The notes beneath the pieces are model-generated. The model saw only the letters and a program-made list of their open reading frames with translations, was not told the origin of the DNA and ran no database searches. Made by a program: the position numbers and the translations under genes. Shown here in pieces: positions 8,982-45,347 of a stretch of 64,000 nucleotides of DNA (position 1 is the stretch's first letter; the number at the start of each line of letters is the position of its first letter). The DNA lies in contig NZ_CANMJB010000005.1 in the NCBI RefSeq assembly GCF_947498175.1, positions 62,001-126,000 of the forward strand, given 5' to 3'. This DNA comes from an uncultured Algimonas sp. Lineage in GTDB: Bacteria; Pseudomonadota; Alphaproteobacteria; Caulobacterales; Maricaulaceae.

Positions 8982-9121
8982 TTTCAGGCTCCGCCTGAAA
9001 ATATTTGATCCAGCGGATCAAATATAACGCATCGCCGTGAGGCGTAAGCCGAACGGATCACCGCACAGCGGTGACGGCCTGATCCCGCTAAAGCGGGATG
9101 ATCGGTCCGGGGGACCGATCA
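8982..9121. repeat. Tandem array of distinct short hairpins
   Basis: Five clear inverted repeats follow one another, each with a different sequence and a very short loop: 8982-9000 (8-bp stem, 3-nt loop), 9001-9025 (11-bp stem, loop AGC), 9058-9074 (7-bp stem, loop ACA), 9082-9099 (8-bp stem, AA loop) and 9099-9121 (10-bp stem, loop GGG). A weaker GCC-GTGA-GGC hairpin lies between. The first could act as a lepA terminator, but one terminator does not explain the series. It forms the left border of the AT-rich islet. Confidence 0.8.
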
Positions 9122-9223
9122 AAGGCGTCGCCGCGAGCTACCGCGAGCGGATGGGCCCGGAGGGGTGAACGGAGCGTTGTGTAACTCTCAATCCGCGAAA
9201 GGGTGTATTGTCCAGTAATTGAT

Positions 9224-9970
9224 CTAACACGTTGGACCATCATAATCTGAAGGTGGGTCGATCTGATCCCACCATAAGACAACGCTCTCACAGGCTGCGT
9301 GCATGTTTCCAAGGCGAGTTTTATATCCGTTAGGGGCTTGAACCAACTTACCCTGGAAAACATCGTATGAGAGATTCATCTTCGGAACCGCTGCACCATA
9401 ATCTGAGAGATGCTGTTTTGCATACAAAAGCGATACTACAGCGGCACTCCTACAATGCTCCATGCGCTTGGCACCCGAAGTCTCGGATTTATTAATGTAA
9501 AGTGAAAGACAGCCCACAGCCGGTTGTTTCCGAAAGACGCCATGAACACTGCAGACTGCAGAAGAACTTATCCGAACTCCTTCAATATTCACCTTGGGCT
9601 TGGACTGTGGTAGAGCTCTAAGGTCAAGTGATCCTAGCCCTGTCTTGTTATAAGAAGCCATCACGGCAGAAAGGGCTTCCGCTGAACGTGATGCATCATT
9701 TCTTTTCCATTCTGAGAGTGATGGGTCTTCGAATTTGGCCTGAAGTCCCTCTATCTTAGCATGAAAGTTAGGCAACGTCCTTGCATCGTTTGTCAAAAAA
9801 TTCACGATTCCATCGCTAGCGTCTCGATACTGAGCAACAATCGCAGTCTTAGGAAACTTTGCTTGCTGAATTATCGTTTTACGACGAGAAGGACTTGCGT
9901 TAACTATTTCCGCCAACTGATTTGCTGAAAGCCGAGGGTTTTCGTGAAGTTTATATTTGGTCTTTGCCAT
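9224..9970 (-). CDS. AT-rich orphan protein of 248 residues
   Basis: No family recognised. The protein starts MAKTKYKLHENPRLSANQLA and has a basic Arg/Lys patch (ASPSRRKTIIQQAKFP) followed by IVAQYRDA. This looks like a conserved nucleic-acid-binding-like N-terminus, but that is only impression. The second half is mixed alpha/beta with four Cys, ending WWDQIDPPSDYDGPTC. There are no membrane helices or signal peptide. Base composition is clearly lower in GC than neighbouring genes and codon use differs, indicating recent acquisition. Its start codon overlaps that of the divergent gene at 9969 inside a CATG, so each promoter must lie in the other gene. Confidence 0.6.
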   Translation of the reverse strand: MAKTKYKLHENPRLSANQLAEIVNASPSRRKTIIQQAKFPKTAIVAQYRDASDGIVNFLTNDARTLPNFHAKIEGLQAKFEDPSLSEWKRNDASRSAEALSAVMASYNKTGLGSLDLRALPQSKPKVNIEGVRISSSAVCSVHGVFRKQPAVGCLSLYINKSETSGAKRMEHCRSAAVVSLLYAKQHLSDYGAAVPKMNLSYDVFQGKLVQAPNGYKTRLGNMHAACESVVLWWDQIDPPSDYDGPTC

Positions 9971-10208
9971 GGATGATCTCTATTTAAGTGCCGAAGTAGG
10001 AGGGCGAACGGTTTGTGTCTCTCCTCTTTCCAAAACAGCCTACAATCAGTGTGGCGGTAAAGGGCTTGGCGGAGACTATGGCTACTTTGTGTATGAGTAT
10101 GACTCTCAAAATAGCGCTGCTGGAATAGAAGTCTTAGCCAAAGCTCGTTCGACCGAGGCAGCACTAAGAATTTTTGATCTCCTCACTCGCAAACCTATTC
10201 TTAACTAA
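9969..10208 (+). CDS. Small AT-rich orphan protein, head-to-head with the 248-residue gene
   Basis: A 79-residue product beginning MDDLYLSAEVGGRTVCVSP, with a Gly/Tyr-rich middle (GGDYGYFVYEYD) and an amphipathic C-terminal helix (STEAALRIFDLLTRK). No family recognised. An ATG four codons upstream (9957) is also in frame. Composition matches the opposite-strand gene, and both stand out as AT-rich. The start codons of the two genes overlap within CATG, an arrangement with no room for separate upstream promoters. It is therefore possible that only one of the two is translated as drawn. Confidence 0.45.
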   Translation: MDDLYLSAEVGGRTVCVSPLSKTAYNQCGGKGLGGDYGYFVYEYDSQNSAAGIEVLAKARSTEAALRIFDLLTRKPILN

Positions 10209-10303
10209 CGTTAGCATCTGTTCCCCCTATGTTCCAGTAGCAATATTGCGATAGAGCTCAAAATCTGCTGCTTCATGCCGGCCCTAGCGCCGAGACGCTG
10301 TTT

Positions 10304-10398
10304 GGGGTGATGGACAGGCCGATCAAGTCGGCCTGAGCGGACTAGGATAGGAGTCGCGCCTTCCCCCTCCCCCCGCTCTCGCCGACTTGATCGGCGAG
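10304..10398. repeat. REPIN-like inverted-repeat element, copy 1 (left of the GIY-YIG gene)
   Basis: Contains two oppositely oriented copies of a 13-bp core, CCGATCAAGTCGG at 10319-10331 and its complement CCGACTTGATCGG at 10382-10394. Each core lies in its own 8-bp stem with a 5-nt loop (10315-10335 and 10378-10398). The outer arms (10327-10340 and 10373-10386) also pair with two mismatches, so the whole can fold as one long hairpin, as REPINs do. About 80 bp are shared, in the same orientation, with the element at 10754-10834. Confidence 0.8.
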
Positions 10399-10421
10399 CC
10401 CATCTCCCATAGCTCTCCCTT

Positions 10422-10721
10422 ATGCCCGGCGGGTGGTTCTATATCATGGTCAACCGGAAGAACGGGACGATCTACGTGGGATCGACGCGAGATCTGGCGG
10501 CGCGGAACTGGGAGCATAAGTCCAAAGCCAATCCGAACGGTTTCACGGCAAAGCATGGGTGCGACCGGTTGGTCTATTACGAGGCGTACGACCTACTCAT
10601 GGATGCCGTGGCGCGGGAGAACGCGGTGAAGCGGTGGAAGCGGTCGTGCAAGATTGCGTTGATCGAACGGGACAATCCGGACTGGTTCGATTTGAAGCTG
10701 GATCCGTTGGATTTCGGTTAG
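10422..10721 (+). CDS. Single-domain GIY-YIG nuclease
   Basis: A 99-residue stand-alone GIY-YIG domain. The GIY strand is represented by GWFYIMVN, YIG by TIYVGSTRDLAARNWEHK with the catalytic Arg, and the metal-binding Glu lies in ARENAVKRWKR, as in the UPF0213/YhbQ group. Catalytic residues appear intact. There is no extra DNA-binding domain. The gene sits between two direct copies of an inverted-repeat element, which suggests either a domesticated mobile nuclease or a nuclease that acts on those repeats (inference). GC content is lower than the genome core but higher than the adjacent orphan pair. Confidence 0.88.
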   Translation: MPGGWFYIMVNRKNGTIYVGSTRDLAARNWEHKSKANPNGFTAKHGCDRLVYYEAYDLLMDAVARENAVKRWKRSCKIALIERDNPDWFDLKLDPLDFG

Positions 10722-10753
10722 CGCGTGGGACAGTCTTGGCCAGACGATGGGGT

Positions 10754-10834
10754 GGGGTGATGGGCAGGCCGATCAAGTCGGCCTGAGCGGGCCAGGTTTA
10801 TGGTCGCGCCTCTTTCTCTCCCGCTCAGGCCGAC
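10754..10834. repeat. REPIN-like inverted-repeat element, copy 2 (right of the GIY-YIG gene)
   Basis: Direct repeat of the element at 10304, offset by 450 bp. It has the same 13-bp core CCGATCAAGTCGG inside an 8-bp stem (10765-10785). Its outer arms GTCGGCCTGAGCGG (10777-10790) and CCGCTCAGGCCGAC (10821-10834) form a perfect 14-bp stem around a 30-nt loop. The second core of copy 1 is not preserved in the right arm. Confidence 0.8.
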
Positions 10835-11660
10835 CCTCCGCGTCGATCAGTCCTCCGGACCTTTCAATCCTTCTCATACGTCGCATAGGTCCGTTCGCTG
10901 AGGCTCACGGCGCTTCGCTATTTTCGCCGTTAGCGAAAATTTGCCTGTGGCAACCGCTGTTGCGTGCATGTCGCTCGGCGCGCTGGAGCCGCGCGCGGCG
11001 ACGAAAGAATATCCGCCCGCCCCATTTTCCTCCCCCTGTCCGGGGGAGGAAAAGGCGCTCGCGGTGCCTTCCGGAGCGGGCCTTTCCGCCGTGGGCAGGA
11101 TCGATCCTCGATTTAGAGGCGCCCATCCCGCTGTTTTCGCAGGCGAACCGACAATCGTATCCGCGCAAACGCGATCATGGGCCATATTGCTATCACCCAC
11201 CCCAGGCACGAGGGGTCCGTTACCTCGGTCGGTGGGCCCGGAGTCTGTGCCATCGTGCATGGACGGTTCGCGAGCTTACGGAGCGCGGACCGTCCCGCGG
11301 GGTGAGCGCCGTCGTCAGCCGGGAAGGCGAGATACGAGTCCGCCGCCGCCCGTCAGGGGTCGCGGCGGATGCGCCCCTTCCCGCGCCGGACGCCATGCCG
11401 GACGCGCCGCAAGCGCGACCGGCCTCTGGCGGCCTCGGCGGGTGCGCCCATTGCGGGCCCCGCCGGACGACGGCGCGAGCCGCCGCGTGGCTCCGGGGCG
11501 CGGGCTTCGGTTCGTGTGAAAAGGTTGTTCTCTCTCGTTCCTTCGCGGAACGGGGCCCGCGCTCGTGCCGCTTCGCCGAAGCCGCACCGCACACGCGCCA
11601 GCCCCCTTGAAAAAAGGGACGGCCGGCCAGCGTCGGCGGCTGCGCGACACTCAAACCCCA
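10835..11660. other. Long GC-rich structured stretch without a convincing gene
   Basis: About 830 bp in which several frames are open but none has a start, codon pattern or sequence that looks like a protein. It holds an 8-bp hairpin at 10920-10940, a 5-bp hairpin with loop TGT at 10941-10953, and a perfect 12-bp hairpin with 5-nt loop at 11025-11053 (arms TTTTCCTCCCCC and GGGGGAGGAAAA). It also has a GGACGG/CCGTCC pairing around 11260-11300 and GCGCGGGC/GCCCGCGC arms around 11498 and 11562. It could be a repeat mosaic, a decayed region or a structured RNA. Confidence 0.6.

Positions 11661-41877: not shown

Positions 41878-45347
<3,470 letters not shown>

Follow-up and report, generated by a model that had tools for sequence, protein, structure and literature searches.

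The locus lies 3' of lepA in the window, by which we mean the whole stretch of 64,000 nucleotides analysed here, and consists of an intact gene for a small GIY-YIG nuclease set among palindromic repeats (Table 1). Read from left to right, a hairpin and a spacer of about 40 bp are followed by an inverted hairpin, the gene, a further hairpin, another spacer and a damaged inverted half. Each core forms the centre of a hairpin, which when complete has an 8-bp stem, the loop TCAAG, and the tails GGNGATGG and GAGCGG; the CCCATCTCCC tail of hairpin 2 is directed at the gene start. The first-pass annotation had described three copies of the core and two direct copies, of about 80 bp each, of a REPIN-like element bracketing a gene of 99 residues. 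The three cores (CCGATCAAGTCGG) are exact, at 10319-10331 (+), 10382-10394 (-) and 10769-10781 (+), and the two copies do bracket the gene but extend to about 94 bp. The stems proposed for them are likewise present: the perfect outer stem of copy 2 measures 15 bp rather than 14 (10777-10791 paired with 10820-10834), and copy 1 combines the inverted second core with a stem of 23 bp containing two mismatches (10318-10340 paired with 10373-10395). Folded as single-stranded DNA, copy 1 reached a z of -5.7 that none of 200 shuffles equalled, and copy 2 a less marked -3.6 that 1 of 200 equalled; because shuffles rarely or never match them, these folds are not a product of chance.

Table 1. Features of the GIY-YIG locus (positions within the window)
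Feature	Position	Strand	Detail or basis
REPIN-like composite copy 1	10293..10386	+	alignment
REP hairpin 1	10315..10335	+	stem CAGGCCGA, loop TCAAG
REP hairpin 1 tails	10315..10335	+	left GGGGTGATGGA, right GAGCGG
REP hairpin 2, inverted partner	10378..10398	-	stem on plus strand CTCGCCGA
GIY-YIG nuclease gene, intact, 99 aa	10422..10721	+	ORF list, Pfam
REPIN-like composite copy 2, same orientation as copy 1	10742..10834	+	alignment, ~94 bp
REP hairpin 3, 3' of GIY-YIG gene	10765..10785	+	GGGTGATGG tail directed at gene
Degenerate inverted partner of hairpin 3	10820..10850	-	CCCGCTCAGGCCGAC then CCTCCGCGTCGATCAG

A half-hairpin variant, GCCGACCCTCCGC(G/A), recurs as the partner of some repeats (window 10828-10838; G046 L255:614 and L238:2234). 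The surrounding segment 3' of lepA (8982-11196) is hotspot-like in that its cargo varies among the related genomes examined, and short palindromes such as TTTTAATCCGGGGGATTAAAAT stand directly after lepA in several of them. Between lepA and the GIY-YIG gene lie two ORFs, 9224-9970 (-) and 9972-10208 (+), for which Pfam, PADLOC and PHROGs gave no family match.

The window protein matches Pfam PF01541 (E 2.8e-13) and its predicted structure is confident (pLDDT 92.7). Foldseek placed this model closest to the UPF0213 structure 1zg2 (E 2.4e-3) and then to the GIY-YIG domains of Slx1 and UvrC, with no match at E 1e-3 or below. Among 28 proteins compared, Y18, R28 and E66 are invariant and Y7 nearly so; these are candidate active-site residues, and presumably they fill the catalytic roles of the GIY-YIG site. 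PHROGs returned two weak matches to homing endonucleases and NCBIfam a sub-threshold match to a group I intron endonuclease, while Rfam and PADLOC searches returned nothing.

The core is not confined to this locus. The genome-wide search that the first-pass annotation had proposed found it dispersed, with 13 copies in the 2.85-Mb genome against none of the reversed pattern. One copy (C1:93180) appears accidental, being by eye part of a protein-coding stretch and having no repeat tails; the other 12 carry GGNGATGG on the left in 11 cases and AGCGG on the right in all 12. In a 400-kb sample, the loop TCRAG on a stem of 6 bp or more was found 17 times, compared with five control loops that gave 0 or 1 apiece. 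The 13-bp core was rejected as a family marker because it is present inside several different stems; two family genomes, G048 and G136, hold 50 and 39 copies of it, far above the others.

Matches to the window protein were found at five loci of its genome, the window gene included, and four of these paralogues are each bracketed by a different hairpin class. The class cores are CCGATCAAGTCGG at the window gene, CCGG(A/G)TC(A/G)AG(T/C)CCGG at C2:235657, GCAC(A/G)...GTGC at C4:64879 and CCGACTTTCGTCGG at C2:320740; at the fifth locus, C5:22549, a weak protein match, no such repeat was seen by eye. A lone hairpin of the class found near the C2:235657 paralogue, ATCCCGGA-TCAAG-TCCGGGAT, lies at window 44502-44522 (-). 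The Pfam GIY-YIG model has seven matches in this genome, some of them UvrC-like; the Pfam match at G000:C7:54185-54397 (L241), also in the window's genome, scores only weakly against the subfamily profile (i-E 1.7e-4).

Flanking repeats are also a property of related genes well beyond this genome. A profile match was obtained in 118 of the 137 genomes of the window's family, and a GTDB sample supplied the best 80 of at least 550 confirmed loci, from several phyla. Among these best 80, the two flanks shared an exact inverted stretch of 14 bp or more in 48 genes, compared with 0 of 432 shifted places. When the best 80 were combined with the genes of the family genomes and of the window's own genome (169 genes, 4 of 173 being omitted for short flanks), an inverted alignment score of at least 20 across the flanks was reached by 118 genes and by 8 of 1024 shifted control places, leaving 51 of the 169 without a strong flanking inverted repeat. 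The CCA tail of the nearest tagged hairpin is directed at the gene in 89 of 136 cases (p 4e-4), or 95 of 148 under a looser rule, which amounts to a tendency and not a rule, and one that misses the gene-near hairpins of the window owing to the CGCTC tag and the CCCAT tail that these carry. Copies of a flank stem outside its own gene numbered 6 in 28 loci and 35 in 756 cross pairs, both small numbers. Genes in G044 (C20), G019 and G023 were considered as broken copies and rejected, their stop codons being the natural ends of shorter genes.

The hairpins appear to be matched to the enzymes. In a 68-protein tree, the division between 5-nt CTTGA-like and 4-nt GNRR-like loops requires 5 changes compared with 23.0 for shuffled labels, with 0 of 500 shuffles as low, though the tree came from a quick search on few columns, has many weak forks, and contains near-copies that also favour clustering of labels. 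It draws on 68 of the 173 genes, 77 having no clean tagged hairpin and 28 having other loops. Both loop types coexist in the window's genome and in G014, so that the split cuts across species. The window's class was compared over 36 hairpins of four genomes (27 distinct rows). Compensatory changes occur at each of the four outer stem pairs, the inner four being constant through row selection, and double-change cells number 23 compared with 8.7 after shuffling, a value as high being reached in 0 of 500 shuffles; the number of further pair types in the stem did not exceed that of shuffles (193 of 500). One paralogue-specific stem, TCACCGA-N7-TCGGTGA, matches in 14 of the 137 genomes. The cognate gene was seen in two genomes, G044 and G046, whose six sites (three per genome, two at the gene) have the loop CTTGA or a one-base variant; five sites in G005 have other loops (CTTGT, CCAAG, ACAGG), CTTGA is present but out of register in G075, and the loops in the remaining genomes are unrelated. 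The paralogue-specific repeats, the enrichment in flanks, the fit of loop to tree and the covariation together support the earlier proposal that a GIY-YIG protein, in place of a RAYT, is partnered with REPIN-like DNA: the gene-repeat partnership is real, apparently enzyme-specific, and not RAYT-based.

Three known systems invite comparison. REPIN/RAYT systems (IS200/IS605-like) resemble the window in having a gene bracketed by palindromic repeats with dispersed, often paired copies elsewhere, but their gene codes for an HUH tyrosine transposase rather than a GIY-YIG protein, and their GTAG tag is absent from the window repeats, whose tails are GGNGATGG and GAGCGG. The CGTC REPs are closer. According to a survey by Di Nocera et al. 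(2013; PMC3733652), these have an 8-9 bp stem, a 4- or 5-nt loop, a CC(A) tail, a tag reading CGTC, TGTC or CCTC and a stem that begins with AT, form dimers of opposite orientation, predominate in alpha-Proteobacteria, include the Neisseria repeat dRS3 as CGTC-1, and 'apparently lack a dedicated transposase'. The window repeats are alike in stem length, loop size, CC(A) tail and opposite-orientation pairing, but their class reads CCGCTC (a CGCTC tag), and its stem begins with C-A or C-T instead of AT. Other repeats of the same genome come nearer to the description: a repeat beside the C4 paralogue, CGTCATGGCACGA-CTTGA-TCGTGCCATCC, has both the tag and the initial AT, and the class found at the C2:235657 paralogue shows this AT as well and, in several copies, a CCTC tag.

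The third comparison is with Neisseria. A tblastn search of plasmid records recovered an N. gonorrhoeae GIY-YIG homologue (37.5% identity, E 4e-13) that sits amid 11 dRS3 copies within 2,661 bp. The record concerned, L265 (NZ_CP119142.1), is filed as a plasmid but, judged by its 2.17 Mb, is a chromosome. We take this homologue to be the founding Neisseria Ssn protein. Ssn GIY-YIG enzymes, treated by Chenal, Veyrier and co-authors in Nature Communications in 2025, reportedly cut single-stranded DNA site-specifically at cognate repeats (NTS). The window has in common with them a small single-domain GIY-YIG protein, homologous to that of Neisseria, and cognate repeats both at the gene and dispersed; it differs in its 5-nt TCAAG loop (4-nt in Neisseria), and its genome in holding several paralogues, each with its own repeat. 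Among the titles listed in literature searches, whose coverage omits most subscription journals, none joins GIY-YIG to REPs.

Taken together, we consider it probable that the window carries an Ssn-type GIY-YIG endonuclease with cognate REP-like hairpins, these being a variant form of CGTC-tagged REPs. Judged by its sequence and architecture, the system is most likely a further case of the Ssn kind, and the window protein would act on its own hairpins. The different, analogous partnership suggested in the first-pass annotation is thus probably not a new kind, given the Ssn pairs and the resemblance of the repeats to the CGTC REPs already described. An enzyme of this type may recognise its hairpin while the DNA is single-stranded, during replication, DNA uptake or repair, and cut one strand in or beside it. 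The bracketing copies could allow the gene to be moved or copied as one with its repeats, and the dispersed copies may represent gene-less sites of the same system.

What such cutting would achieve can be read in more than one way. It is possible, although we hold the idea only tentatively, that the unit disseminates by homing: the enzyme would cut a REP and repair would copy gene and repeats into it, making the repeats recognition and landing sites and the whole a non-RAYT counterpart of the REP/RAYT pair. Sites with and without the unit are consistent with this. GrpE was detected in 17 of 18 genus genomes, and the grpE-mutM junction holds the unit in two: in G044 the GIY-YIG gene is intact and has ATCACCGAG-type hairpins on either side, and in G046 a gene between hairpins of the same type contains two in-frame stops. 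The other 15 of the 17 loci gave no GIY-YIG match; 13 of them, that of the window's genome included, have 2-67 bases between the grpE stop and the mutM PELPEVE codons, and the remaining two carry other sequence (290 in G051, 425 in G056). The closest relative of the window gene, identical at 87 of 99 residues, adjoins a different neighbour, aqpZ in G046; just two further genus genomes, G044 and G056, have aqpZ, and their loci gave no GIY-YIG match. The small mobile unit envisaged in the earlier annotation is therefore supported in part. Empty sites, which that annotation had also called for, are represented by the lepA site of G046, where within the same flanking blocks a single hairpin, identical in 37 of 37 bases to window 10372-10408, and no GIY-YIG match correspond to the gene and three hairpins of the window. 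This site is not clean to the base, and the comparison is suggestive only, because the cargo genes differ as well; among G000, G046 and G044, the flanks of dispersed repeats are too diverged to show insertion boundaries exact to the base. GIY-YIG enzymes are not known to form a covalent transposase intermediate, which we also count against homing.

A dose relation, with repeats rising with gene number, had to be rejected, which counts against both the Ssn-type reading and homing. Raw repeat counts do correlate with gene number (rho 0.37) and differ between genomes with and without the gene (p 0.0009; within-genus permutation p 0.0002), but both effects vanish on subtraction of at least one flanking copy for each gene, a step that over-corrects where a gene's flanking class escapes the two patterns. 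Among the 19 genomes without a detected gene, three hold 7 to 15 CGTC-type repeats (G120 15, G115 8, G001 7), and therefore repeats can occur without a detected gene; their assemblies are 73% (G120), 92% (G115) and 89% (G001) complete, and an undetected gene is possible in each. These repeats, like the 51 genes that have no strong flanking inverted repeat, weigh against the Ssn-type reading. The expectation that repeats would be limited to strains with this GIY-YIG subfamily accordingly fails, the core lying inside other stems and CGTC-type repeats occurring where no gene was detected, and the opposite outcome, repeats independent of the nuclease among relatives, holds in part, for those 3 of 19.

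Slightly less probable than homing, in our estimate, is a role in controlling DNA uptake or recombination, in which the enzyme would cut incoming single-stranded DNA at the repeats and modulate transformation while spreading nothing. The Neisseria Ssn/NTS pair is said to modulate transformation through cutting of single-stranded DNA at repeats, and the general architecture of the window matches the gonococcal locus, but 13 window-class cores in the genome are few for genome-wide control. That the repeats are ordinary transcript-end hairpins with the gene among them by chance is very improbable: REPs do lie mainly 3' of coding regions (PMC3733652), but the flank enrichment, the fit of loop to tree and the paralogue-specific classes contradict it.

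Returning to the Ssn-type reading, its link to GIY-YIG proteins gives the CGTC REPs, for which the survey reports no dedicated enzyme (PMC3733652), a testable enzyme partner. The arrangement of gene and repeats is widespread, and it points to the partner enzyme that had long been missing for a large class of bacterial repeats. A more sweeping proposal, which we regard as speculative and rather unlikely, is that the CGTC REP super-family as a whole has its missing dedicated enzymes in the Ssn-like GIY-YIG proteins, which would spread through homing into the repeats that belong to them. Gene, paired repeats and dispersed repeats would then constitute one selfish system, evolved independently of REP/RAYT and with many paralogue-specific hairpin codes side by side in a genome. 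The natural series of enzyme-hairpin pairs, with varied stems and loops and several per genome, could show how GIY-YIG proteins recognise hairpins. A phage collection searched for relatives of the gene gave no match, and viral contigs gave 18 loci. On plasmid p1 of Planktothrix agardhii (L266, 1201-1485), a relative of the GIY-YIG gene has a type IIL restriction enzyme on one side and the DISARM gene drmA on the other.
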